NCBI RefSeq assembly: GCF_000006565.2
Contig: NC_031475.1
Location: 4,168,522 to 4,232,521 of the forward strand
DNA: 64,000 nt
Direction: 5' to 3'
Source of the DNA: Toxoplasma gondii ME49
Taxonomy: Eukaryota > Apicomplexa > Conoidasida > Eucoccidiorida > Sarcocystidae
The notes beneath the pieces are model-generated. The model saw only the letters and a list, made by a program, of their open reading frames with translations. It was not told where the DNA came from and did no database searches. Shown here piece by piece: positions 5,644 to 56,902 of this stretch (the stretch's first letter is position 1; each line of letters starts with the position of its first letter). Both the position numbers and the translations under genes were made by a program.

Positions 5644-6768
5644 GACTTCTGGAAAAGATGTTTTTTTAGCAAAAGAGGAGAACCCAGTTCTGGATGGGGC
5701 TTGGAAACGGGAGAAAACGTCCAGAGTCAGGACAGACAGCAGAAGAGAGAAGACACAGAGGAAAAAGAGAGAAGGAGAAGAAGAGTTGGAAGAAGCGTCA
5801 GAAGCAGAGGAAGAAGGTGAGGAAGAGAGATGAAGTTCGCGTCACGCTGTGAGACGGACTCTTCCTCTGAATAGAAGAGAGTCTGTGAGGAGCGTTGTCG
5901 GTCTGAGCGTTATTTCTTGAGGAAGCAAGAAGCTGCATGCGCCAGAAAAACGAGGATGCTATCAAATGAATAGAAAGCCAGGACCACTGATTGATGTCTA
6001 TGCTCCGTCTCTCTGCGGTGTGTCACCCTTCTGGTCACTCCTCCTCTACAAAGAAAGCACAGACGGGAGATGGCCCGCAGAACGCCTAGAAATCTCTGTA
6101 GAGAAAAGAAGAGGCGTCAAAAGACATGTCTCTGATGGAAAGTAAGACGTCTCTCCGCCGTCGGCAGGCGTCGCCGACAAGACACCCAAAAAGGGGGGCA
6201 TGTTGGCGTGGTGGCGGAAGAGCGACAGAGGCGAGTCGACAACGACGCTGGCCGCTCGAGCTCTTTGTCGACGAAAGAAGAGACCCCCTTCCCCAGAGAA
6301 CTCGAGGAGAATCAAAAAGTGAATGCGTCGAAAGCGCCCGAGCAACGTGAAAAGAAACGCAGGAAGGCGCTTGGCGTCACTCTCCGACTTCGCCCTTGAG
6401 AGTCGGCGCCAGTCAGGTGTACATACACCTCACGGAGAGTCGGTCTCTCGCAGCGCCGGAGCAATGGGGCCATACAACGCAGCGCGATGGGTGTTTGCGG
6501 GTCATTGTGCAGGAGTTCGCGTTGGCTTTTCTAGCTTCTTCTCGAAAGCCTTTCGTGGAAATTCATTCCATCTTGCGCATGCAGCAGAGACGCAGGCGCA
6601 TGCACACACACGCGCGCGACTTGACTCGTTTCGCGGGCCTCAGTTGAGGAACGGAGACACGCAGGCGCACCGCTGTCTCGACAGCTGAACTTTTCCCCGA
6701 GTGCTGCTCTGACGGTGAGTCGAACTTCCTCTTGTTTCTCTCTTCTCTGGAGCGGATTTTCCGGGGCA
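5644..6768. promoter_or_regulatory. Divergent spacer between RAD50 and the ubiquitin-like gene
   Basis: The 1.1 kb between two genes transcribed away from each other presumably holds both promoters and 5' UTRs. No convincing coding segment was seen. The one recognisable element is the palindrome-like word at 6415-6430, described separately. Purine-rich runs near 5740-5830 are the complement of pyrimidine tracts on the RAD50 strand. Confidence 0.45.
6415..6432 (+). promoter_or_regulatory. GGTGTACATACACCTCA element, copy 1
   Basis: The sequence AGGTGTACATACACCT is an almost perfect palindrome, followed by CA. It lies about 340 bases upstream of the first in-frame ATG of the ubiquitin-like gene. 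A 17-base copy differing at one base occurs at 7200 and again at 22350, and a weaker copy at 24588. The recurrence is seen directly; regulatory function is inferred. Confidence 0.5.
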
Positions 6769-9700
6769 ATGCCGGAAGACGTTCTCTGTCGAAGAGCTGC
6801 TTCGCCTTCGGCCCCTCTAGACGCATCGCCGCTTCTTGCTGCCTTACCTCGCGTCTGCCCTGGTCAGCTTTGGTGTCTGTGTCTGCTCCTTGCCTCTCCT
6901 TCTTGGCGTCGGCCTCCTGGCGTCTGCTTCGAGATGGCGACCACGACGACGGCCGACAGACCCAGGCGCCAGGGCAGAGAGGACCACCGGAGGCTGGTCA
7001 CCTGTCAGTCGCCTTCCTCTCCTCCTGAGTCGCCTGCGACGTTTTCCGAGGCTTCCCGTTCCGCCGCTTCTTCCGCCTCTGCTCCTTACCCCTCTCCTCA
7101 CCAGTCCGCCCCCCTTCACTTCTCTCCCGCTGTCGACGGCGCCGCCGAAAGAGTCTGCCGAAGCCGCGTTCTTCTCCCGACCATGGTTGTGTTCCTCCTG
7201 GTGTACGTACACCTCAGTCATGAGCCTGTCGCAAACAACCACCGGGGCAGGGGAGGGATCGGAGAGGACGCATCCGTTTTCTGCGGCTGTCGGGGCAGCA
7301 GGTCGAATGCCTTTGGCAAAACAGCCGAGTGTCGAGTAAGGAATTTGACTTCGCCGAGAACGAGGCGTCAGACCGACGCAGCCAGTGCCGAGCTGCTCCT
7401 GCCGGCTTTCCTCCATGCAGCTGCCAGTCCGCGCAGTTCGTTTGTCGGCAAAGAAAGTTTTTTTCCTTTCTCTTACTCCAACTCAAAGCAGATGTCCGTG
7501 ATGCCGTCGTCGTGGCAAGCCTACAAGAGAGACAGGCAGGTGACGAGGCGTCCTCGCCTCGCGACGCTCATGGTATCTTCTCCTTTTCTTCCTGCTCCGC
7601 CCACTATTTCTTCCCCAGCGCCGCGTCGAGGAGCTCGGTGTCAAGACACCACAGCATGCCCGACTCTCCACTCTCGAGGTGCAACCTCCGCCGTCCAAGG
7701 TTCACGCCCAATTAGAGACAGGTCTCTCCTTCCACCCCACACATTCTCTTCTTCGTTCCTTCTGTGTTCGCCGGCGTCCTCTGATTGCTCTTCCTCTGCT
7801 TCTCGAAGCCGTCCTTCCTCCCAGTTCCCAGACTGTTCTGCTTCCTTCCCGAATTCCTCCTTTCGTTCAACCGTCTCCTCCCAAAGTACACGCACAGAAG
7901 CAGCGAAGCAGCCACTGCTGCGAGTCATTCTGAAGACAGCCACCGGGTGTCCAGAGCTGGATTTTTCTCTCCACTTTGATCTCCCTTTCGACGCGACAGT
8001 CAGCGACCTCCGTCGAGCTCTGCAGGTCCGCTTGCAGCAAGAAGAGGAACGCCTGCTCGCGGCTCTAACTCCTGACCCTGGACAGGTCCACGGTTCCAGG
8101 AGCTCTGCAGAGAGCAACGGCGCAAACCTCGAGTTGTCAGGCAGTGAGCAGAAGCCGGACGAGACGAGCCACTGTCTCCATGCTTCGCCTTCACGCGTGT
8201 CTTCTTCCTCGGCTTCTCTTCCCCTTCCAGGTGATTCCTCAGCTTCTTCCGGGCCGCCTCTGAGTCTGCTACGTCTGCTACACGGAGGCGCCAGCGTGGA
8301 CGACGCGAGCAGGCGCCTTTCCTCTTTGCTCCCAGCGAAGAGCGGCGAAGCTGGCAAGCTTCCAGAAGGGCAAGAGAACGCTTTCGAAGCGCCGCAGCCA
8401 CTCGTCTTTCTCCTCGATCTTCCAATCCCGCCCTTGGTGCTGTCCAGAGACGCGAATTTGTCACCAGCGAACGCATCACCTTCTGAAGCCGCTTCTGAAG
8501 AGTCCTCTGCCTCGCGTTTCTGCGCCCCGCTCTCGACGCGCGTCGACGACATCGCTGCTGCCCAAACGGGCGCGCTTCAAGAGATCATCGATGTGCTTCT
8601 TCGCTTGCAGGAGGCGCGTCTCTCTCTGACGAAGAAGGCTCGTGAATCGGTTTGTGGTCGGTCCCCAGGCTCCTCGCCTGACTCTCCTCTCTTTGACGCT
8701 GTGTGGGGAAACACCGGGCTTCCTCTGCAGAGCAGCGAGAATGTCCTGAGGCGCGTCGAGGCTCTTAAACGCGCCGCGGCTTCCCGCCGGACGTCCCTCG
8801 GCGACTCTCGGTGTCCGTCTTCTCATTCTCACTCCTCTTCGCTAGAGCCTCCCAGCGTTCCTTCCACTTCTCCTCTCTCCACTCTGCCCTGCCCTTCTTC
8901 TTCTCCTCCTCCTGCGTCTTCTGCGTCTCTCTCGTCTTCTCCTTCTCCGTGCGTTGCTTCTTCCTCTGGGTCTTCTTCCGGGAACTTGGTGGAGTTCCCT
9001 CGCTTGGCGCCGACACTCGGCGACCGGCTGAGACAAGTCGCACGGGTCACCTTCGACGTGGACTGGCCGTGGATCGCTCGCGTCGGGTGTATCTCCTTCG
9101 TCCTCCAGGCTCTGCTGGGCTGCTTCGCTTCTTCGCGGGTCCCTGTGACGCCTGCGAGCGGCCGCGAGGCAGGTGGCGGAGACGGCGACAGTCGCAGAGG
9201 CTCGGCCGCTTCGGCGCAGAGCGGCGGGATGACGGAGGCCGGCGATGGCGAGGCTGAGTCGCGCGCCAGGCGGGGGGGCTGGGCTGCAGTGTGGCTGCGG
9301 TCTCTGCAGGAAAACGTTTCAGAAAAAGATTCCACGTTCTGGCGCAGACGCATGCTCCTTGCTGCAGCACCTGCGCTCGTCCTCTCTGGGTGGCGGCCTG
9401 TGCGTTTTCTGCGGAAACTCGTCTCGCATTCGCTGCCCAGAGGCCAGTGGTGGACAGGTACGGCGGTTTGTGGGGTCGGGTGGAACGTTCGTGAAGCAGG
9501 CGACAGCGATGATGCCAAAGGGTGCGAGACAACAGACAAGGAGGACGGGGAAGCCGGAGGCAGTAGAGTAGACGATATCTCGGTTGAAAAGACGCGCTTC
9601 GCGGGGACCTGCTGTCATTGTCCGCCGAGCCGCGAAGGCGGAGAAGAAGCCACGGAAACGGTTTAGCGTTTCGGAGCCTACGAAAGCGGCCCCACAGAGA

Positions 9701-31569: not shown

Positions 31570-34500
31570 ATGGCGTCGTCTTCCTCAGCTTCTGCTTCAA
31601 CCGCGCCAGAGAGTGTGAGCAGCACACCAGAAAAGCTAACTCCGAGGACATATCCGTCAGGATTCCGCTTTTCTTCTGCAGTCGGGACCAAGCATATGAC
31701 TCACGATGACAAAAAAGGAAAGTCTGGGAAGCTGCATAGTTCCGCAGCGTCTACACCAGGACTTGGGTACTACGGAAACTCGGCAAAACAAGGCGTTGCA
31801 AACCAGCCTGGATCTGCCATTGTGGCGAGCCAAATGTTCAAAACAAAATTGTGTATTGACAATCAGACGAAAGGGTGCAGTAGAGGAAGCGAGTGTCCGT
31901 ATGCCCATTCCGTCGATGAAATGAGAAGTCTTCCTGACTTGCGCAAAACCAAAATGTGCTCTCTTGTTCTTTCAGGCAAAGGATGGTAAGTCAAGATGCC
32001 CGAGACGTGGCCCGAGCACGACGGTGTCAGCGTGACCGTTTCTTCAAATGACTCGTGGAACATTAAGGAAACGATTTTTGTGAATACACAGTCAGCGAAC
32101 TGAAAGCTGTTCTCAGGCTGTCCAGCGTAGACAGAAGTTTCGTGATGCGCTACATTCACAATAAAGGACAACCACCCCAATTTACCAGAAAATGTGTCAC
32201 AGGTTGTGTTACCATGACGTCTATCACCACTAGGTTTCCAGGCCATTGCCATACGTGTATATATACACTCTGGACGACAAAATTCCATGTACGAGTTGCG
32301 ATCGGTGCGATTATGCTAGCATTAAAGTGTGTGGCCTACGGTAGAGACTTTCGTTCTCCACAGTATGCAACGGTCCGCTAATGGGGCATGACGTCGTTGA
32401 TCTACCAGGTCAAATTCTAGCCACTAAGCAAGATTCCACAACGGCATCCCGAAGTCGTCAATATTTTTACGGTTATAGCAAGCAATTTGATATTCAAGGT
32501 CGTGCGGTGCCCGTGTATTACCCGCTTGCCTCGCCTCTTGCTGAAGACGTAATCACTGAAAGCCATGAGTTAGAAGCATGCCAGCAACTTGTTCTGTGAT
32601 GCCCTATAGAAAGAAACGAGTCGCATAGGTTGAGGTATTTCTAAAGCGTCATTCTTGGCTAAAAATCCTATTACGGTTTCGTCTTTCCCTGTGCCGCCCA
32701 GCAGATTTTTTGCAGATCGTCGCCGCCTCACTAGGAGTTGTGGACATGCTTGGTGTGTTGGCTTGCAGCAAGAATAAAGCATGTAGATTTGCACATTCCG
32801 AGAGCGAGCTTCGATACACCTGCAACTTTTCCGAATTCAAAACTCGTATTTGCCGTTTTGCGCAAGAGCAAGGAGGCCGTGGATGTCTCTACGGCGTTAG
32901 GTGTCCGTATGCACATTCCCCATCTGAGCTTCGTCATCTAGAGTCCCCTACAATTTCCCCGACTGAGATTTTGGTACAAGATAGGAGAAATCGTGTGGCG
33001 TTCGTTGCCAAGTCGCCTCACACTAGAGTTGTTTCTTCTTCCAGACCTGCATCTGCACTGAAGACACGACCAGAAGTGGCTAAAGAAAACCAGACGGTGA
33101 CACCGGACTCTCTCGAGCATCAGCTACAGGGAAGGCACGGTTGCAGACCTTCTTTTCTCGACGAGGAACTGAAAAAAGGTGGTGCGTCGAGGAAAACTTT
33201 GGGAGAGTCCTTCTCTTTCTCAGTCGTGAAGAAACTGAATGCCCCGCCAGAGACGGCAACTGGCAGTGAATCGAACCAAGCGTCCACCAATGCGCAGCTT
33301 CACCAGACGGAAAACCACCCTTCACAATGTAAAAGTGGTTCCTACAGTCACACAGAAACAGACGGAGAACAGGGTAGCTCCTCTCAAGGGAAGAAAGACC
33401 GAGAGGCTTCCTGTTTGGCACGCGGTGTCCAAGCGAACAGCACAATTCCACGGTCACTTGCCGGTCGACGCCGAGCGGCGACTGAGAACGCTGGGAAAGC
33501 TGCCAGCAAACCCATCGGCTCAATAGGTGGGCAAATGCAACCGGAATAAAACTGGTTGTCGCCTCTTGGTTCCTGAATCCGACGAAAGGTGCAACAGGGA
33601 GAGGCAAGCAAAAGAGAAGTAAAAAGGGAACGATGATAAGCGTAAGATAAAAACAGCATATCAGATGACACCGAGTGAGGGTAGCCGAGGGAGGCACAGC
33701 ACGATATATTCGGCGATGGGTACGAATATTCAGAGGTCCAGAAAGCCACTTGTATCTCCACCTGCGTGGTTGTTGCATGCTGATCTTGATAAGCTAACTT
33801 TCGAAACTTATGCATTTTCATTTTCCACGACGTGCTCGTACCCTGGAGGTACTCTGTGAGATGCGGCTTTCTGCCCATTTGCCGGCGTGTTTGCTTTCCT
33901 GTTTTGGGATGTCTGCTGTGTGTTTCGCCAGAACCAAGGCATGATAACTTGGAAGGTCAGGCCTTTTTGATTAGAGACCGTGTTTCCGGTGATAAACCGG
34001 TGGCTGAAGGCGAGGCCGTATCCGGTGGCACAAATAAGGAATCTACGTCGCCTCTTTTGCAAACCCGCAAGCCTCCGTCTTTTCTTGTCTCCCCCGCAAA
34101 CTCTGGTGTTCCACCAGCATCCACCCAAGAGCGAGAACAGGTTTCCTCCCCGTGTAAGCTGATCGAGAATGCGGGTCTAGATGCTCACAGGATGGCTCGC
34201 GTGCTTTCCGTTGATGGCCTGCGAGGCATGGAAGTAAGGACATCCGGGACTCCATCTGCCCAGACCTCTCTAATTGAAAAAAGTCGCATCTTCAAGCAAC
34301 TGGGTGCAACACCGAATACAGTGCCTGCTACATCTACATACTGGGCGCCGACACAACAACTGCCCTCTCTGAATACTGGCTTTTCTACCGAGGAGATTTT
34401 TTTCCCTGCGGCTCCTCGCTCGAACAAAATGGACGGAGATGTGTTTGACTCTGTGTTACCTACATCCCTTCCACACGTTCCCTCTTCGTCGCTCCTAGAC

Positions 34501-35226
34501 AAGCGAAACGCGACTCTCCCGTCGTCGGAAACAAATCCGCTTCCTCCTCCACCTGGATTCGAGCATATCCGTCCGGAGAAGACAGGCGTACCGTACGGAA
34601 GGAATATGCCGGATTCCGTGTCGGAAACCTTCAGGGAAGGTCCACTTGCTTCTTCGTTCTCCGAAAACAGCGAAGTGGATCAGCACGAGCAACTCTTCTT
34701 GCAACTCCAGAGACAACTCTTGCTACAGTGCTGGGGCAAGATGGATGAAGACTCGCTTTTGCTCTCAAAAAACCTGACTATTGCTCCCACCGGAAACTCA
34801 GGAGGACGAACCAAGCCAGAAAACAAGGCACGCATGCCTGTTCCCTCGGACCTTTCTAATGAAATCTTCTCGCGACAGAGTCACACGTCGCGCCTCCCCG
34901 TTGACTGGGACATGTGGGAACGTGAACTGCAGGGAGAGGACGCTCAACCCTCTCTCGGAGATGAGAGAGGGTTCCTCTCTTCATCGGCAACTAACAACAC
35001 GCAGTTTCTTGACGTCCACATCCCACAAGCCCTCTTCATCGGGAAGGTGCCAACACCCGGGGAGAAATCGAGCCGCAACAATGGCCTCGGGACCCTGTCT
35101 GTGAGAGAAAAAGGCGGTCAAACGGGACTTGATATGCGAACGGGAAGAAAACGGAAAGAAATTCAGGAAGAACTTGGGGAACTCATGGTTGCAGCAGGGG
35201 CCTGGGAGTCAGGCATGGCGCCGTGA
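31570..35226 (+). CDS. Triple CCCH zinc-finger protein with tetraproline motif (predicted mRNA-binding regulator)
   Basis: Exons 31570-31985, 32769-33526 and 33932-35226 join in phase to 823 codons (822 residues). Three CCCH fingers lie at residues 95-113 (C-x7-C-x5-C-x3-H), 130-148 (C-x8-C-x4-C-x3-H) and 167-188 (C-x10-C-x5-C-x3-H). Fingers 1 and 3 have a TIS11-like lead-in (FKTKLC, FKTRIC) and end CPYAH. Finger 2 is split by intron 1 in its second cysteine codon. The rest is Ser/Gln/Lys-rich and probably disordered. Residues 596-601 read PPPPGF, the form of proline motif that GYF domains bind and that tristetraprolin uses to contact GYF2-4EHP. A Leu/Gln-rich helix (QHEQLFLQLQRQLLLQCWGK) lies at about residues 641-660. 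Such proteins usually bind mRNA and recruit decay or repression factors; the target is unknown. If intron 2 is not removed, a stop at 33547-33549 would end the protein early. Confidence 0.85.
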
Positions 35227-46757: not shown

Positions 46758-49063
46758 ATGACGGTGAGAGTGGGCTGCTCAACTCTACTTCCCCATAGCC
46801 AAAATTCTGTTCACATTTTCGTGGCTCTCCTGTTAACTGTAAGACAGCGTTGTTTAGGGCGCATGTTGGAAACCCGCACTTTGACATGAATAGGCTTTGA
46901 TCCTCAGATGCATTGATCGGTCTGTCCTACAGAGAGACACGTAGTTACTTGTAGGCTTACTTAGTTGTGTAGGTCTGCATCCAAGAAAACGACCCGCGCA
47001 GGTACACAGCTCTGGCCATCAACACTCAGCTTATAGAAATGTTAATGCATAGAGAGTAGTTAACAAAAAATCGAAGCCCCAGGTGGCACCGGACGGCGAC
47101 AACAAAAGTGCCGGAAGTTCGGTCAATAAGACGCGTACACAAGACAACCTGCATCTAGTCAACAAAGACACTCAAAATATCAACAACTGGTTCATCGAGT
47201 CTTTCTTCTGTTGTATGAGTTGTCTGCCAAGCTCGTGTCCGCACCTGACGGAGAAAAGAGATCGACATTGTAAACTTATTTGGTCACGGAAGTTCCCTTT
47301 GGTTCTTCGGCCTGCACCTGTCACCGAGATGGACTGTCTTTTTTATCGATACAAGGCAAGTATTTTGCTTTCTAGACTTCATTGCCTGATAGCCTTGCTT
47401 CTAACACTTCAGTTGAAAACGGGTCTCCCTCCTTATCCGCCATAGCCATGCGTGTTGTCTCAATACACACGATGGACCTCTGCGTTGTCCACAGTCTAAA
47501 AGCAGAGAGCACGAGGGCTCAAGACTTCATGTTTGTGGTCGCCTCAAGTTGCTTTTGGCAACTGTAACTGCGGGATTTACAAAACGAGCTCGGCAGCCTT
47601 GAGATTTCTACTCTCTCGCACCTTCCCTGCTGGCGCTGACTGTTTCATCTAAAGAGAAAGGCGCCATACAAGATAAGAAGCGTGGCCTTTGTGACCGGGA
47701 ATGGCGACAACTGAGAATGCCACCATGGGAAGCGTGCTCAAGCTAGCACAGAACAGTCCTGTTGATCGACGCGGTCTGCGGCACCATTGTGAAGGCGCAA
47801 GCAATGACCCTTTGGGTCGCTTCCACACGGATAAAATGTACAGACATATACTGTACACAGAACCATTCTTTCAGCGCCTAAGAGCAGATATCTTAGGACT
47901 CGTTCATGTCCCTAATTACTGTGCACATGTTCAGGTAAATGCTCGGAAGTGGAAACACCCTTGGACACGTCGACACAGAAGTCTATGTGTAGGGTGCCGT
48001 GAAAGCGAAGGTGGCTATGGCATCTGAGAAGAACCCTTTGGCGCCAAAATGTTTTCAACTGCCGGTCTGCCTGCTATAAGTGTTTAATCCGCCGACATTT
48101 GTGGGTTTTTGGAGAGCCGGCGCCCTGACTCTTCCCGGCGCAGTCGAAGCTGAGCGGAGCTATTCATCGAACAATGGAGTTGCGACAAATCGAAAAACTC
48201 GAAACGAACGAGCACTCGAACTAAACTAAGAACAAGGGCATGCTTGTTCTTTCTTCAGATCCATACCCCAGGGCGGAACGGAGGTGCACTTTACCGAGTA
48301 GGAGGTATCGTCGGCAGAGAGGAGAAATAGTCAATTGAAACTAAGTTCTCAGCCAAATGCAGAATCTGAGGCGTTCATGCCACCTTGGTCTGTGTCCAGG
48401 GCCAACACCTGTCAGGCTCCTGGGGTTGGCAAAAGCGAATCATTTCTTGAAAAAGTCAGACGAACCCTCACGCCAAATGCGAGATGGTCGCCACTTGCTG
48501 TCGCGCTCGGGAGGTACCATGAAAGGCCACGTATCCCTCAAGCACCGCTGGAAGACGTCTGTGATCGCGATTTCCTGAACAAACATCAAGCAGGAAAACG
48601 CATTTCGCAGGTTCGTAAGGGTCGTGATATTTGAAACGCCTTCAACACTGGACGCGCAGAACTGTAAGGGTGCGTCTCGAGTAGCTTCTCCGTGGGTCTG
48701 TCGCACTATTCCAACTCTAATCCTTCTCTGTCCCTATGAGTTATGAAACCCCTTCACAATGAAACAGAAGAAACAAATTCATCTTCTTGGTCGTTTTACC
48801 ACCGTTGACCCGGTGCCAAGAGTCTCAGGTGAAGCAGCGACGAAACGGGGAAGAAAAACACGCCAGTACACCGAATAGGAGCGATGAGAGACACAACACA
48901 GTGGCTTCTAAAGAAAATCTCTTGATTCAAGATGACTGCGTTTTCTAAGCTGTTTGATGTACTATAAGCCGTCCAGAGTGCCTATGCCGCTGTTTTTCTC
49001 ACAGCAGGCGGCTGAATACGTTTTTGATATCTCCAGGCATCGAACGAATGAGAAAAGCGGATG
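46758..49063. other. Intergenic stretch, no gene seen
   Basis: The 2.3 kb before the 3' end of the ATP23 gene contains short frames only. Frames at about 47100-47445 and 47700-48025 have no good start context, no domain and no splice partners. Confidence 0.45.
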
Positions 49064-50957
49064 CTATAGTGCGGAGACCTTCAAATGGAGAATGCAAGCC
49101 TTCCACATGGACACAGCGATGTCTGCATTCTTTCGACTCTCTTCGGTTTCGCAGTCCACACAGTTTCCGTTCCCCAACAGATGTTGTGGCCGCACATGCA
49201 CGTGTTTTCAAAAGAAGAAAGTGAACCCCTCTTACCGCGATCCCTGGGGCTTTGCATTGTTGGTGATCTCGCAGCGAGTTCAGCGCGTTGTGAACAAGAC
49301 ACCGATTTCGCTTCGTGTCTTGCCAGGGCATTGCCCCGTTCCCCGAAAGGAACACCGGGTCCCCCCCATGTTTGAAGCTTTGAGCGGAAACCCCCATCTG
49401 CTGTTCGCCTTCTCCCGCGGTGGTCCTACAGTCTCTTGTCACCTGCGCCACGCTCCCCCCAAAGAGCGGCAGCTGTCGCTCTCCAGCCGTCTGCTCGCTC
49501 CCCGCGGCGTCGCGGTGTGGGCATCTCTCCTCACGCGTTTCTGCATGCACAGACGCGTCGCCCTTTTCCCCTTGCGTCGAGAGACCCCGGTTTCGCGGAC
49601 GAAGAAACGCTGGATCGATGCGCTGAAACTGGTCTTCGTCCCACCGCTTCGTAGCCCACCAGCTGCACTGGCCGCTGAGGTTGTACGCGCGGATCTCCGT
49701 ACATGCGACGTGTCTGCAGTTCTCTGGGGACAGTTCAGCCCGTGCGAAGTCAAATGCATGCACGAGCTCGTGAAGCAGGACCCGCCGCAGCTCGAAGGGA
49801 GACCAAAAGCAGTTGCCGCAAAGCCACACTGTGTGGTAGACTGGCGAGTACCCTCCCCGGTGTGGAGGGGGAGCAGATCCGCGACCTGAGGTTTGGGCAC
49901 AGTCCACCACGATGAGGTCGACGGGAGCTCCCATGGCGGAGAGTGCGTGGACGAGCGTCTTGACTCGCCAGTCGCGAAGCGCGAAGAAACTCCAAAGTTT
50001 CATTTGTTGACGCTGCAGCCACGACAGCGTCTCGTCGCCAAACTGGAGAAGCGGGGAAGTCGGCGAAGCTGTCCGCTGCGACTCCTCGCTTTCTGCGGAC
50101 TTGGAAACGGTCTCCACCTCCGAGCCCCGAGGCGCAGGTGAAACATGCGAAACCGGTGTTGCCTTCTTCCTAGGAGGTGATGCGCCACCTGCGGAGGGGG
50201 TACGATCCTCCTCGCAGCTCGACAAAGACGGAGGCAAGAGAGCGGCACAGGAGGACGCCTCTGCTGCTGCGTTCTGCGTCGCAGAGACGCCGATTCGCTT
50301 GTCTTGCGTTTCCGCGGCCGAGAGAGGTTTTGACATGGATGCAACAGAGGACTGAGAAAGTGGTGCCTGAGCTGCGCAGGCGCTCGCGAGGAAAGCGGAA
50401 CGGCTGTCTGGTGAAGAAGGCGGGGAGGCAGGAGAGGTGCAGGCAGAAGTTGATGTAGACAGAGAAGAGGGAGAGGCAGACGACGTCGGCGGGGCAGCGA
50501 TTCCTGGGACACTGCAGACATTCTCACGGCTTGATGAACCACGATTTCCATATTGATCGGGCTGTTGAAAGGAGCTCTCTTCAGTCTGACGCGATTTAAC
50601 AAGCCATGAAAGCCACCTCCACTCGGAGTGCCAGGAGGTGTCGAGCGCCACGGGGGCCGTGGGAGCGTCAGAAAGAGTCATTTCAGAGTTTCTCAACTTT
50701 GTGGGAGGTTCCGCACAACAGGCCGGAGGCAAGAGCTTTTGCGAACACCGACGAAAGGAAGCAGCGAAGCGAATGGCATCGCAGGAAACCTGGAGCCGGT
50801 TTCTACAGAGAAAGGCGCGACGAGGGGCGAGCGTGAGCCGCCCCTGAGTATCGGGTTTCCCAGGCATGATAAAGGCCTTCGGTTGTTTTTTTTCTGCTTT
50901 AGGAACTACACAGGCATGGGAATTCGCTCGCCACGCAGGTACGACCGTGCACGACAT
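49064..50957 (-). CDS. ATP23: Mitochondrial inner-membrane metalloprotease ATP23 (peptidase M76)
   Basis: Two exons, 49236-50957 and 49064-49129, join in phase; the first in-frame ATG gives 595 residues, while ATG 50868 gives 565 and an Arg-rich, presequence-like start. ATP23 works in the intermembrane space, processing ATP synthase subunit 6 precursors and assisting its assembly in yeast. The zinc site HELVHAFD is at residues 396-403 with the expected neighbours: a D-C-A-Q-T-SG segment before it, VWLCGNCF, and NCRHVACTEIRAYNLSGQC after it. The C-terminal part has CLVHNALNSLRDHQQC and, in exon 2, AVSMWKACILHLK, matching the twin-Cys ends of the family. The protein is more than twice the usual size because of a long Ser/Pro-rich N-terminal region and an approximately 120-residue insertion before the C-terminal cysteines. 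The intron is short (106 bases). Confidence 0.88.
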
Positions 50958-52261
50958 GTAGACAGAACCACACCTTCGCAGTGAAACAGAGAGAGTTACG
51001 AGGGGAGCAACACAAGTTGTACGTCGAGAACAAACAGAGAGTCGCCGCCAGGTGGTCTCGACACGCTTGACCGCGGCCAGATATTCGCGCCCATTCAGCG
51101 TCTGGCCGCGAGTGGCTCGAGAAACGAGAAACGCGGGGGGTCTGAGTGGCACATATATCACCTAGATATTATCGTTATGTGAAAGGCTCGCCACATAAGA
51201 GACATACAGGTCACTGTACGGCAAAGGATGGGAAGTATTAAATGAGCCGCTTCCCGGAAAGGGCGTCCGCAGAGGCTGCGGAGACAGAGACACGCGGCAG
51301 GTGTCCACGGATGTTGCGCTCTCCCGGTTGCGAAGTTCGGGAAACACCACACAAAAAAAGAGCCCTCAGTGGATGCGTGAAATACAGGCCTCCTCACTAA
51401 AGTGAAGATACTTCTCACGCAGAATGAAGAGGTTCGCTTTCTAACCAGAGACAGAACATTGGTCCTCAGGATGGCATTTATCGACCCAGGTTGCATGCAT
51501 GCTCCGGTGAGACCCTGGATAGTTCGGACAGTCGTAGGTGAAGGGTGTGTTAGAGACTTAGACTCGTGTCACCGATTGTCGCCGTTTGATTCACCGCAGC
51601 ATCTAACCTTGTTTCCTTTTGTGTTTAAGGCCGTGTTCCGTGTTAAAAGTTGCAAACAGGCGTGGATTCTCATCCTGTTGCGCGTGCTGGACAGGTAAAC
51701 AACTCCGTGCCTGGGAGAGCGCGCTTCGTTGTTTTTTCGTATTTCTCCTTTTACAGTCACAAGCAGCTGCTGTATGTGGCATTGAACCCTGTAGTCGCGG
51801 ATCTGTTTTACCACGTTGCAACGCTGACGCTTTTTACCCGATCCAGCCTCTGTCGGCGCTTCTAGTTCAGCTGTGTAAACGCGCGACCGCAACATGGCAA
51901 CGCTGAGAGACTGAAACGCTCCAGAAGACCTCCGTGTTTCACAAAATCCCCAATTGTCAGACAGGAGAGTGTGTGTGTACACGTTCCGACGCGTAACCAT
52001 TTGCGTCAGCGAGCCGGTCGGGATGATCAGGTACTTAAGCTTCCTTTACATCCGAGGGAGTAGTTGCATGTACACGAAGGGCGCGCACATATCTGCGCGT
52101 GTAAACACTTCGAGGCATGCGTACGGTTACAAATATTTTGCATGCGATTTTTAGGCGGCTTGCTTTTTTGCCTCATTGTTTCTCTAGGTGGTCTCTTGTG
52201 ACGTGTCTGAGTGCCCCCGGTGTATGGCCCGGGGAACTAGTCACTGCAGGTTCTCTCCATC
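50958..52261. promoter_or_regulatory. Divergent spacer between ATP23 and the DXO-like gene
   Basis: The 1.3 kb should contain both promoters. The frame upstream of the ATP23 start stays open to about 51161 but contains no further ATG. The overlapping TGCATGC words at 51492-51502 are the best regulatory candidate. No coding exon is supported. Confidence 0.45.
51492..51502. promoter_or_regulatory. TGCATGCATGC promoter word
   Basis: Overlapping TGCATGC copies lie in the divergent spacer. GCATGC-type words are established promoter elements in T. gondii and are recognised by ApiAP2 factors in apicomplexans. Position supports a role; no direct evidence here. Confidence 0.4.
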
Positions 52262-53956
52262 ATGCAGGGGTCTTCCGCGCCGGCCGAGATAGGCGACTGT
52301 TTATTCGCGATATCTGCCGATAGCATTGGACGCATAGAGGATTCTCTGCGTACGCCAGGAGCACTGTCTTCACGAAAGTCGTCTGGATCTGGATACTGTG
52401 AAAGGGGTTTTTCGGCATGCTTTAGCGACAGACAGACGGTGGGCTGTTACTCATGGATTGCTCGCGACGATGAACACACGCTTGCGGCGCCGGGCCTCCC
52501 GCCTGTTGTGTCTAGGGCAATAAGCGTGTCACGTGGCCAGTCGTTGAGGGGCCGGGTGATTAAAAAGAGCAGCAGACTGGAGTTCTGTGACGAGAACGCG
52601 TACCACGATCCCGACCATCCTGTCGAGCAGCTCATGTGCTCTGTCGATTCGTGTCAGAGACGGTGGGTATCGAAAGCGGAAGCTTTGGAGCCGCCATGCC
52701 CGTGCGTCCATGTCCTGCGAGAGAAGGCAAATAGGCCAAGGCTTTCCCTGCATCAAGAGTGGAAGCGCGACGAGGCGTTTTCTGGAGAAGGACAGACGCA
52801 GGCGACAGCTTGTGCAATAACCCACGAGGAAACGGGTGTGAAGGGAGGTGGTTTGTGCTTGGGTCAGTTTGATTTTATCACTGACAGGACGAATTTACGG
52901 GCAATGCTGCGTTTCCTGTATCCAGGCCTCACGCGCTACTCTCGACAGGCTTCCATCGATCTCGATGTGTATGGGAACGTATGTGTGATGACGCGGATTT
53001 CTGCCGAAACCCGTGCTCCGGATGTCGGCTACGGGCACAGTTTTGAACACTGCTGCTGCGAGACCCAGACGATTTCACTGGGTGAGAAGGACGCTGTTAA
53101 AGACGACACGTACGAGTTCGTGGACCTTTCGTCTTTCCACTTGATCCAGGCCTTCACACTGTGTGACGCGGTTCGTGTCCTTGTTCGCAGCGAAGTTGAC
53201 GCCTGCAGCCACCCTGTGGCTCTGAGCGTGCCTGAATGTGCAGAAACGTTTCAAGAAAATCGGTTTTTCGGACGGTGCGGTGCGGGCGTTCCCAATCCCG
53301 AGTACATTCCACTGGCTCAGCAAGGGCCCACTCTGTATTTGTCTCGGCAAGAACCGGCGAACCTCACGCCGTTTGAAAGGGCGCTACTTGCTCGGGACGA
53401 AAGGCTGCTCATGGAACTGAAGAGTGTGTCTGAGCGATACGTAAGCGCTATACCGTGGCTAGACATTTATATCCAGATGCGGCTCGGGGATGTCCACAGG
53501 CTTCTTGTGGGGTGTCACACGCAGGGAAAAATTGGGAGAATGGAGCTTCTAACACTCTCCTCTGTAGCGGAAAGGGTTTTCCGGCAGCAGCTGCACACAC
53601 CGACCGTGGCAAGACCTGATCCCGTGAATGACAACCGCCGGTCTCCATGGACAAGCCATGAGTCGAGAAATACTAACAGTTCACGTGCAGAACCGGAGTG
53701 CGCTGCTGAGGTTGTCTACTGGTCGAGGCTGACGTCGCTGTTGTTGCAATTGAAAGAGTTCGCCCTCCAGCACAGGGACGACGACGGAAAGGCATTTCTT
53801 AGAATTGAACTGACTGACGAGACTACGTTTCGCGTCTACCGCCGAGCACATTCCCAACCTCGCGTATCCGTTGAGATTGGCTCGGCCATATTGAAGTGCT
53901 CGTTATCACCGACGAGGTACGGTAGCCAGTCCATTGGTTGCCCCTCTTTGCAGTGA
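52262..53956 (+). CDS. DXO/RAI1-like decapping nuclease
   Basis: A single frame of 564 residues carries, in order, the signature motifs of the DXO/RAI1 PD-(D/E)XK family: motif I arginine in FITDRTNLRAML (R209), motif II G-h-x-h-E as GHSFE (258-262), motif III E-h-D in SEVDA (E311, D313) and motif IV E-h-K in MELKS (E385, K387). Known members remove aberrant, NAD or unmethylated caps and degrade the RNA 5' to 3'. Upstream segments (GCYSWIA, APGLPP, DENAYHDPDHPVEQL) resemble a group of fungal proteins whose database names are often uninformative. The 74-residue gap between motifs III and IV is much longer than in human DXO. A donor at 53917 (AG|GTACGG) and acceptor at 54103 would replace the last 13 residues with a 10-residue end finishing at 54134. 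A later exon cannot be excluded. Localisation is unknown. Confidence 0.8.
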   Translation: MQGSSAPAEIGDCLFAISADSIGRIEDSLRTPGALSSRKSSGSGYCERGFSACFSDRQTVGCYSWIARDDEHTLAAPGLPPVVSRAISVSRGQSLRGRVIKKSSRLEFCDENAYHDPDHPVEQLMCSVDSCQRRWVSKAEALEPPCPCVHVLREKANRPRLSLHQEWKRDEAFSGEGQTQATACAITHEETGVKGGGLCLGQFDFITDRTNLRAMLRFLYPGLTRYSRQASIDLDVYGNVCVMTRISAETRAPDVGYGHSFEHCCCETQTISLGEKDAVKDDTYEFVDLSSFHLIQAFTLCDAVRVLVRSEVDACSHPVALSVPECAETFQENRFFGRCGAGVPNPEYIPLAQQGPTLYLSRQEPANLTPFERALLARDERLLMELKSVSERYVSAIPWLDIYIQMRLGDVHRLLVGCHTQGKIGRMELLTLSSVAERVFRQQLHTPTVARPDPVNDNRRSPWTSHESRNTNSSRAEPECAAEVVYWSRLTSLLLQLKEFALQHRDDDGKAFLRIELTDETTFRVYRRAHSQPRVSVEIGSAILKCSLSPTRYGSQSIGCPSLQ

Positions 53957-56329
53957 CCAGATTTCCTCTGCAATTTTGTGGTGAAACAAACGCAGAACAT
54001 CTCCGCGTCATGCAAACGTCAATAAAGGTGGCTTCTGGGAATATTTGTTTGCACACCAAACAGCGCAAGCCGAAGTTTTTGTGGTCAGTTTCCTCTGTTG
54101 CAGGTACCATTTGAGGGGTGTGCTATTTCGTTGACACCACTGCGCAAAAACGGGATTGCAGATCTGTCCCATTGTTCACTGTGTGCTACGACCTGTGCTC
54201 CTGTGGCATTCTCCCGTATCAATCCTGCCTTGAGTTCGAGAAGGCTCTTAACGCTGTCTCGAAGAAGCTCCCCTGCGTCTTGGATTCGGATCCGGTCCGC
54301 ATGTGACCGGGCGACATCCCCATGCGCCGCTTTTTACGCCCTAGAGCTGCTCCACGAATCTTTGCCAATGAAAGTATTATATCATCAGGCTTGCTGAACC
54401 CGGAGGAGGGAGGTGCCACTACTTATCTGAATCCTGCTGGAGGTTCTGTGAAGCAGTCGTTGCCCTCCCGGAAGCAGCCCATACTTCCTGGAACGTTTCG
54501 TAAATATCGTTGTTCTTGCTTAGCCCAAAAGCTGTTTTCCTCTAGAGACAGCGATAAAACGGTTTTTACTCAACTTCAGTGTAGGCGACGTCCTAAAATG
54601 AGCGTTGCTACGGGTCATTCCTGGAGCGAGACACATTCCGTCGAGCCTCGTATTGGTATGTCACAGTCAGAACTCCCGCCACAAGACTAGAATATCAAGG
54701 TGCGTGAGGAAGGCACTTGTGAGTGTTGCTGTGTCTTCTCAAAATGACAAAGGAAAACGCGGGGAATACAGATGAGATCATGGACGCCGCATGGGGGTGC
54801 CCACTCCTAATTCCCTCCCTTGTATGCCTGCCGTTACACAAACAACAGTATTCAGTAACGGTTTGCATCGACTAGTGGATGGTTGTAAAAATCATAGGGG
54901 AGAGACGTCGAAACAGCAATACAGCGTATTATCTCCCTATCGCGATGTTTCAATGGCACACTGCGGTGGGCTGCTTCATGAGAGTTGCGTTCTCCACAGC
55001 CAGATTCTGGTAGGCCTTGTGCCATCATACACGCGTCACGCAGGAACACTCGGATCTCATGAACTTCGAATTTTATCTGAAGGAGGAATAAACACCGGGA
55101 TTTGTGAGAACGCGACGGCTGGCTGCAGCAGCCGTTCGTATGAAACACACGGGGACCATGTTTCGCCACTACGGTGTGTAGTTCTCCGGTCATCAAGCTT
55201 TGGAGCCTTCTCCAGAAGTCTCAGTTGATATGGCCACACAAGAACTTTTATGGTGTCCATTCCATTCGCCTAGTCTCTTTTGGCAGGCAGTTCTGTGACA
55301 TGAAAGTGGTCGTCGCACGTACGTGCCATCTCTCGCGAAACCATGTCAGGTGGTTCGCTCTTTCGTGGTACGAGCTAGCCTCGGGGACCTCCCCAGAAAG
55401 TGGCACCTTGTGTGTGTGCTGGCCAGAGGAGCCCATAAAGAAGCATCTGACAGCCTTGGATGCTATTTTGCCTCCTGGAAACACGATGACCTTGAAATTC
55501 ACGGTAAAACACATATCCTGCGCCCTCCCCCCACCCAGTTGGACGGTGTTGTTCGAGCGGAAGGCGGCAGGATCAGCTGCGAAGAGACGTCACTCGACGG
55601 CGCCCCACAAAGGGAGAATAGGGAGACCTGTCGGAGCGCCCCAGTGAATCGTTAAGCCTGATCCACATCTTTTCCCGTCTCTTCGAACACCACAGTTTGC
55701 GGCCGGCGTGGGGTGTCTGAGTCGCGCGCGCTGTGCGAGGGGTGATACGCGCCATCCGCGCGCTGTGCTGAAACTGTGAAAAAGCCAACGACTTCTTCGC
55801 CTTTTGCGCAGTGCAAAGGCACATGGGGTCTCCTTCCCCCCTCTCTCCCCCCACCGTTTCTCCCCACTTCGTTTCCCCCGAAATTGGGCGGCGGCCAGGG
55901 TTCTGCGCGTTTACGGATCTTCTGCGTACATTGACCGGAGTGAGCAACTGGCGGACGCTTTCGAACGCGCGGCGGCGGATTTTTTCTCCCGTGCTCTCCA
56001 CTTTGTTCACCACGCACTCTTTTCGGGAAGTTTTTGAAGAGGGAAGTTTCTCTTCGTTCTCTCCAAGGGTTGCGGCGGTTTGCTTGGGGGTGAAAGCGGT
56101 TGCATCGGTACAGCGTAGACCCGTTGTGCAAAGTGCCAGTCTGCGGTTTCTTCAACCAGTTTTGTCGCGTATCACCACCGCTCTTTTTAAGGGCACGCGA
56201 CACACAGCAGGGTCTGCTGTTGCTCGTTTTGCCCCGCAGACATTTCGTGTTTTCCTCGTTCTCGAGTTTTTGTGGTGGGGCGCTGGCGGCTCTCGCGCGC
56301 GTGCGCCTTGTGAGAACGGTTCACAGAAA
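53957..56329. other. Intergenic stretch and NAC beta 5' region
   Basis: The 2.4 kb contains the DXO-like gene's 3' region and the probable promoter and 5' UTR of the NAC beta gene. Frames at 54118-54306 and 54322-54690 look slightly protein-like but could not be joined in phase to the DXO-like gene. The NAC frame is open upstream from 55811, but its composition before 56330 is that of UTR. Confidence 0.4.
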
Positions 56330-56902
56330 ATGGAAGAGGAATTGACCCCAGAAATACTCGCCGCCCGCGCGAAGCTGCGGGAGCGGTTTGGACAGGCTTC
56401 CCAGCAGCTCGGCGGCAAGGGGACTGCTCGCAGAAAGACCAAGAAGGCCCACAAGTCGGTCGTCGTTGACGACAAAAAGCTCCAGCTCACACTGAAACGG
56501 CTGGGAGTCTCGACCATCTATGGCATCGAGGAGGTTCTCATGATTCAGGACAACGGCAAGGCTCTTCAATTCCTTACCCCCAAGGTGCAAGCCGCCCCTG
56601 CGGCCAACACTTACGTCGTTTCGGGCCACTACGAGGAGAGGCCGAATATGTTTCCCGGCGGACTTCCGGGCATGTTCTCCCAGCGAGGCGCCGGAGCGGG
56701 GGGAATGAACTTTGACACTTCCCTGATCACTCCGGAGATGCTCCGCCAGCTGCAGCAGCACATGTCTGCCTTGAAGACGGGTGCGGGCGGTGCTGAAGGA
56801 GCGGCCGCAGGCGAAGGCGCCGAGACTGGCGACGCCAGCAAGAAGGGAGATGATGACGTCCCCGAGCTTGTGCAGAACTTCGAGGATGTTTCAGAGCAAT
56901 GA
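56330..56902 (+). CDS. Nascent polypeptide-associated complex subunit beta (BTF3 homologue)
   Basis: A single exon encodes 190 residues. NAC beta with NAC alpha binds the ribosome near the exit tunnel and shields nascent chains in the cytosol. The ribosome-binding signature GGKGTARRKTKKAHK is at 28-42. The NAC domain follows (KKLQLTLKRLGVSTIYGIEE, then MIQDNGKALQFLTPKVQ and NTYVVSGHYEE) to about residue 103. The C-terminus has the usual DDDVPELVQNFEDV ending after an Ala/Gly-rich linker. Length is normal for the family. The start is chosen at 56330 because the conserved N-terminus begins there, although the frame is open further upstream. No intron was seen in the coding part. Confidence 0.95.
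   Translation: MEEELTPEILAARAKLRERFGQASQQLGGKGTARRKTKKAHKSVVVDDKKLQLTLKRLGVSTIYGIEEVLMIQDNGKALQFLTPKVQAAPAANTYVVSGHYEERPNMFPGGLPGMFSQRGAGAGGMNFDTSLITPEMLRQLQQHMSALKTGAGGAEGAAAGEGAETGDASKKGDDDVPELVQNFEDVSEQ

Follow-up and report, generated by a model that had tools for sequence, protein, structure and literature searches.

Which protein is encoded at positions 52262..53956 of the window (the whole stretch of 64,000 nucleotides of Toxoplasma gondii ME49 analysed here) is a question raised by two readings of the same open reading frame. The NCBI records of this 564-aa Toxoplasma protein and of its orthologues in Neospora and Cystoisospora carry the name "transcription factor btf3", and the Besnoitia orthologue is listed by NCBI as a hypothetical protein and by UniRef as "Transcription factor btf3". 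An earlier note, made from the letters alone, took the product for a decapping nuclease of the DXO/RAI1 type. We consider it probable, at roughly 0.73, that coccidian parasites have here a PD-(D/E)XK nuclease of a DXO/RAI1-like kind, one that has diverged strongly. The gene and its parts are as follows:

52262..53956, + strand: putative divergent DXO/RAI1-like protein, a single uninterrupted ORF of 564 aa from ATG to stop
52418..52666, + strand: N-terminal lobe, residues 53-135, 45/83 invariant
52853..53056, + strand: motif I (R209) to motif II (G258-H-x-F-E262), residues 198-265, 40/68 invariant
53123..53209, + strand: motif III strand (E311-V-D313), residues 288-316, 20/29 invariant; II-III spacing 49
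53201..53413, + strand: insertion between motifs III and IV, residues 314-384, seen in four coccidian proteins
53414..53422, + strand: motif IV candidate E385-L-K387, invariant, the ELK being found by DXO-derived blocks
53453..53518, + strand: motifs V and VI (P398, Y403-x-Q405, H419); V-VI spacing 14
53687..53869, + strand: C-terminal domain, residues 476-536, 23/61 invariant, with a long helix and two strands predicted

The open frame reaches just 7 residues 5' of the ATG (571 in total), and the protein matches its own Toxoplasma gondii assembly at full length in one copy. The database protein closest to it is from Toxoplasma gondii (99% identity), and orthologues are present in Neospora caninum (72% identity), Besnoitia besnoiti (63%) and Cystoisospora suis (47%). 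Among 7994 scored candidates, i.e. the database proteins with the most words in common with the query, only the Toxoplasma protein and these three orthologues were found when the single sequence was the query (E <= 1), and the four coccidian proteins alone when the coccidian alignment was (E <= 10). With no fungal match in this set, the resemblance of the N-terminal half to a fungal group, as proposed previously, was not borne out. Viral contigs yielded no relative, either with the DXO alignment or with the coccidian alignment as query. The Din1 protein (Rai1 of S. pombe) had no match in the Toxoplasma genome in a search run without a control, and a PF08652 (RAI1) search of the same genome, equally without a match, was uninformative because 14/14 controls were just as silent. 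In a protein search with 522 matches, all 120 that were listed carried PF08652, and those with a name were yeasts, although the majority had no name.

Standard profile comparisons did not connect the protein with DXO/RAI1. Pfam hmmscan of the 564-aa protein gave no family at E <= 1, PF08652 included, whereas Din1, the positive control, scored 1e-82 with the same model; the three orthologues gave nothing except one unrelated sub-threshold match. The DXO/RAI1 relationship was likewise undetected by NCBIfam hmmscan, and phmmer and hmmsearch of the PDB returned noise only. The HMM-HMM comparison with DXO/RAI1 that had been suggested as a check (hhalign) came out insignificant, with a probability of 0.3%, but its alignment still paired R209, E262, E311/D313 and Q405 with their counterparts. 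When the protein was compared by pieces, the motif I piece and the II-III piece fell at the expected place, with 6/150 and 5/150 shuffles, respectively, scoring at or above; the N-terminal piece fell near it and was not significant (30/150), and the insertion (51/150), the IV-VI piece (84/150) and the C-terminal piece (58/150) did no better than shuffles.

The first block test, which used long, yeast-weighted blocks, failed: its score was under the shuffle mean, and 16353/20000 shuffles were at or above it. After this failure a short-block test was designed. Short stretches of highest conservation were picked from 23 of the 128 DXO/RAI1 sequences, each clade having the same weight, then chained through the averaged coccidian alignment and compared with 6000 column shuffles. 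Twelve blocks of width 8 scored 51.1 against a shuffle maximum of 42.6 (0/6000), and eight blocks of width 6 scored 40.3 against 40.2 (0/6000); eight blocks of other widths were reached by 1/6000 (width 8), 17/6000 (width 10) and 222/6000 (width 5) shuffles. At widths 6, 8 and 10 the blocks placed motifs I, II, III and IV at the positions given in the earlier note, whereas width 5 put motif I in the wrong place and skipped motif II. Motif V was never placed correctly, motif VI only at width 10 and with a small score, and a few other blocks were wrong. Single sequences were also compared with decoy windows, which overlap and come partly from six-frame ORFs, some of them perhaps not real proteins. 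At the best setting 3/688 E. coli windows and 0/223 Toxoplasma-ORF windows equalled or bettered the Toxoplasma sequence alone, and at the worst setting 101/688 and 28/223 did so; at the two best settings the single sequences stood among the highest 0.4-5% of E. coli windows, and the worst result of all was that of Besnoitia (214/688 E. coli windows equal or better). Since single sequences are weak against real decoys, the putative DXO/RAI1 signal is carried by the residues common to the four species, not by any single sequence.

Joint alignments with six sets of family members were produced by MAFFT without motif information. R209, E262, E311, D313 and Q405 were paired with their counterparts in 6/6 sets (with R209 = R105 and E262 = E172 of ScRai1 in all six), and H419 with motif VI in 5/6. 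Y63 in the N-terminal lobe was aligned to Y27 of ScRai1, again in 6/6 sets, and the N-terminal VGCYS block matches EIGFYS/EIACYS of Rai1, as found with the 12 blocks of width 8. When the four species were aligned with randomly drawn yeast sequences, 48/48 draws placed R209, E262 and E311 correctly and 42/48 did so for Q405; with FER-containing yeast sequences excluded, these first three residues were correct in 64/64 draws and Q405 in 19/64. The placement was less stable with Cystoisospora as the sole coccidian row, motif II being missed in 8/12 draws with 5 yeasts added and in 4/12 with 20. Pairwise alignments recovered all seven catalytic positions in only 2/48 cases, many missing most motifs, and one of two small joint alignment sets recovered all seven. 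Against 23 family members, 10/26 family-invariant and 5/7 core residues coincided, while 160 shuffles never exceeded 9 and 3. None of the 6 family sets, and none of 144 and 320 random draws, paired ELK with motif IV, because PFERALL, directly before ELK, resembles FERKLF of Rai1. We nevertheless assign ELK to motif IV as a candidate, because it is invariant, stands in order and is supported by the block test.

Rai1 enzymes are defined by six motifs in the description given in PMC4513879, namely Arg (I), G-Phi-X-Phi-E (II), E-h-D (III), E-h-K (IV), K-X4-Phi-h-Q (V) and G-h-R, with K for R in yeast Rai1 (VI). In the alignment of the four genera (Toxoplasma, Neospora, Besnoitia and Cystoisospora), R209, G258, H259, F261, E262, E311, V312, D313, E385, L386, K387 and Q405 are invariant in 4/4. 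The four signatures first noticed in the Toxoplasma protein (R209, GHSFE 258-262, EVD 311-313 and ELK 385-387) are all there in the right order and hold across the four species. Motif I has its Arg in R209, but the preceding residue is D208, where 127/128 family members have F, W or Y. Motif II reads G-H-[SR]-F-E262, with His as the first Phi in the coccidians versus Tyr in 125/128 and His in 1/128 of the family. E311-V-D313 agrees with E-h-D of motif III, and the invariant E385-L-K387 with E-h-K of motif IV, an assignment found by blocks, in none of the six MAFFT sets, and made partly by order. Motif V departs from the definition in that Y-[IF]-Q405 is kept but Lys, present in 126/128 family members, has become P398 in 4/4 species; motif VI departs as well, being [GA]-x-H419 in 4/4 species, where the family has R in 124 and K in 4 of 128. 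Because motifs V and VI depart from the six-motif definition, we do not file the protein as a canonical DXO/RAI1 member. A pattern of motifs I-IV in order, with generous spacing windows, occurred in all four species and in 0/200,000 column shuffles, although the windows were set, and His allowed at motif II, only after the protein had been seen.

Thus, four near-invariant family positions are replaced in 4/4 coccidians, by Asp (I), His (II), Pro (V) and His (VI). According to PMC9283932, the motif I aromatic, taken here as the residue before the Arg, lies against the NMN ribose of the NAD cap; for known structures, PMC4513879 describes the motif II Tyr as packing on the second ribose, and the Lys of motif V and the Arg of motif VI as binding an RNA backbone phosphate. 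As judged from the residues, the overall pattern is one of retained putative metal-site residues and an altered substrate grip. The previous suggestion of a likely cap-quality-control activity is too strong, since these four substrate-contact positions (motif I aromatic, II Tyr, V Lys and VI Arg/Lys) are all replaced.

The distances between motifs were measured in the 113/128 family sequences that could be parsed, nearly all of them yeast-like Rai1. Two coccidian spacings equal the family mode: II-III is 49, as in 109/113 parsed members, which is the fungal value (42 in mouse DXO and Arabidopsis DXO1), and V-VI is 14, as in 113/113. The other three lie beyond the family range, with I-II at 53 versus 55-75, IV-V at 18 versus 22-25, and a much longer III-IV segment. 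E311 and E385 are 74 residues apart, and D313 and E385 are 72 apart (71 in Cystoisospora), whereas the D-to-E distance in the family is 17-21 in 107/113, with single cases of 14, 27, 29 and 38 (the last in S. pombe Rai1) and 2 mis-parsed rows. The unusual insertion noticed earlier is therefore confirmed as a longer segment, but it sits at a loop whose length is already variable in the family, as the 38 of S. pombe Rai1 illustrates. Within it, residues 335-384 have 24/50 invariant positions and residues 317-334 have 3/18; for comparison, the values are 40/68 in the motif I-II core, 24/61 in the IV-VI part, and 0/30 and 4/62 in linkers. Because residues 335-384 are conserved near the level of the core and the linkers hardly at all, the insertion looks like a selected element, which probably serves as a lid or for docking.

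Compared with the known systems, the coccidian protein shares features with both DXO and Rai1. With mouse DXO and Arabidopsis DXO1 it has in common R, E, E-x-D, E-x-K and Q in this order, as well as the V-VI spacing of 14; it differs from them in the II-III spacing, in the D-to-E distance (14-17 in DXO versus 71-72), in the IV-V spacing (24-25 versus 18) and in having D, H, P and H where DXO has the motif I aromatic, II Tyr, V Lys and VI Arg. With Rai1 of yeasts, including Din1, it shares the spacings of 49 and 14 and the N-terminal EIxxYS block, and with S. pombe Rai1 in particular a long III-IV loop (38 there, 71-72 here); Rai1 differs in being without the four replacements, and Din1 in matching the Pfam RAI1 model. 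In structure prediction, an unguided AlphaFold2 model failed (pLDDT 28.7), and a guided, partly circular model, in whose alignment set ELK was unguided, matches the DXO fold, but its pLDDT is below 50 around motif II as well as around ELK, so that neither is confidently positioned relative to the catalytic pocket. The known structure most similar to this guided model is Arabidopsis DXO1 (6dkn), with low TM-scores of 0.33/0.45 and an rmsd of 8.8, and the model's ranking of mouse over yeast is within ties.

Several other explanations of the locus have to be considered. The database name, by which the protein would be the transcription factor BTF3 (NAC beta), has next to no chance of being correct: all four orthologue records bear it in at least one source, but the 564-aa protein is without the NAC domain (PF01849) in the Pfam scan, and a NAC-domain protein is encoded on the same strand, ~2.4 kb downstream of the stop of the nuclease-like gene:

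56330-56902 (within ORF 55811-56902), + strand: NAC-domain gene, PF01849, E 8.3e-19, starting at the ATG at 56330

This neighbour, BTF3-like by eye, is most likely the real BTF3, and we infer that the btf3 label probably leaked from it to the nuclease-like gene; a further NAC match is present on contig C8 of the assembly. It is also quite improbable that an unrelated coccidian protein imitates the motifs by chance with its own conserved residues. Such a coincidence would fit the weak single-sequence statistics, the insignificant hhalign scores and the failed long-block test, but it is opposed by the pattern shuffles (0/200,000), the block chains (0/6000 at two settings) and the alignment shuffles (0/160).

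eIF3d has the DXO fold and binds caps without cleaving them, and a cap- or RNA-binding protein of this kind, with no nuclease activity, is an unlikely identity for the coccidian protein, which keeps a nuclease-type active site: the four genera agree in all seven of its catalytic positions, a constancy for which a pure binder would have no use. Moreover, the Pfam model eIF-3_zeta (PF05091) has no match in the 564-aa protein, and eIF3d is a separate gene in Toxoplasma, with five own-genome matches, all on contig C5. It also seems rather unlikely that the protein is a nuclease from a different PD-(D/E)XK family, be it Pet127-like or new, and resembles DXO just in the shared core. This would explain why no profile method links the protein to PF08652, and Pet127, described in PMC9014873 as a 5'-3' exoribonuclease of the same superfamily, is reported there from ciliates and dinoflagellates. 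On the other hand, the core of Pet127 is given in that source as QD-DLK, and Pet127 is mitochondrial, whereas the coccidian protein has EVD and ELK; the Pet127 model PF08634 has no match in the 564-aa protein at E <= 1, while a Pet127 search of the Toxoplasma genome, equally without a match, was uninformative because its controls were silent too. The N-terminal YS block, the Arg of motif I and the spacings of 49 and 14 are features of DXO/RAI1 and speak against another family.

If the protein is a DXO/RAI1-like nuclease, it probably uses the two-metal chemistry of the family, with a substrate that has changed. From the sequence, its conservation, the order and spacing of the motifs and the replaced residues, we infer a fold, a metal site, a substrate and a partner of the following kind. 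E262, E311, D313 and E385 would bind two divalent metals, K387 and Q405 would assist catalysis, and R209 would hold the 5' phosphate, so that the enzyme could hydrolyse a phosphate bond at the 5' end of RNA, whether in decapping, in pyrophosphohydrolysis or in taking off a nucleotide cap. Because the contacts to the cap ribose, the second ribose and the RNA backbone have become Asp, His, Pro and His, the substrate range would be expected to be altered and the protein's own 5'-3' exonuclease activity to be weak, and an XRN enzyme may then finish the RNA. The earlier view of a separate branch of the family is supported insofar as this DXO/RAI1-like protein appears to stand on a branch of its own. 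A more specific proposal, tentative and open to considerable doubt, is that of a coccidia-specific branch of the DXO/RAI1 fold, in which the two-metal site was kept, the grip was rebuilt at four positions and a conserved lid was added, acting on a 5' end (another cap, a metabolite cap or a free nucleotide) different from that of any characterised DXO or Rai1.

No described DXO/RAI1 enzyme of Toxoplasma was found among the papers listed by searches of the open-licence literature. If the present assignment is confirmed, RNA 5'-end quality control in coccidia would gain a concrete gene, now under a wrong name, and the protein would be a natural experiment on the residues that determine cap specificity in the DXO/RAI1 fold. 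The Toxoplasma assembly has one match to DCP2 and XRN_N matches on four contigs (C13, C11, C7 and C5); therefore, 5'-3' exonucleases able to finish uncapped RNA exist, and one of them could be the partner of the nuclease-like protein. On contig C13 (5339931-5341370, - strand) a single open frame of 2147 residues holds two XRN_N matches, whereas the matches on C11, C7 and C5 are distributed over shorter frames. Elsewhere in the window, two long ORFs on the + strand, 6715-9666 (983 aa) and 33832-35226 (464 aa), are without a Pfam family at E <= 0.01 and may be non-coding or pieces of unknown genes. An ORF at 48999-51161 on the - strand contains a Peptidase M76 domain (ATP23-like metalloprotease, HELVH; E 6e-24).
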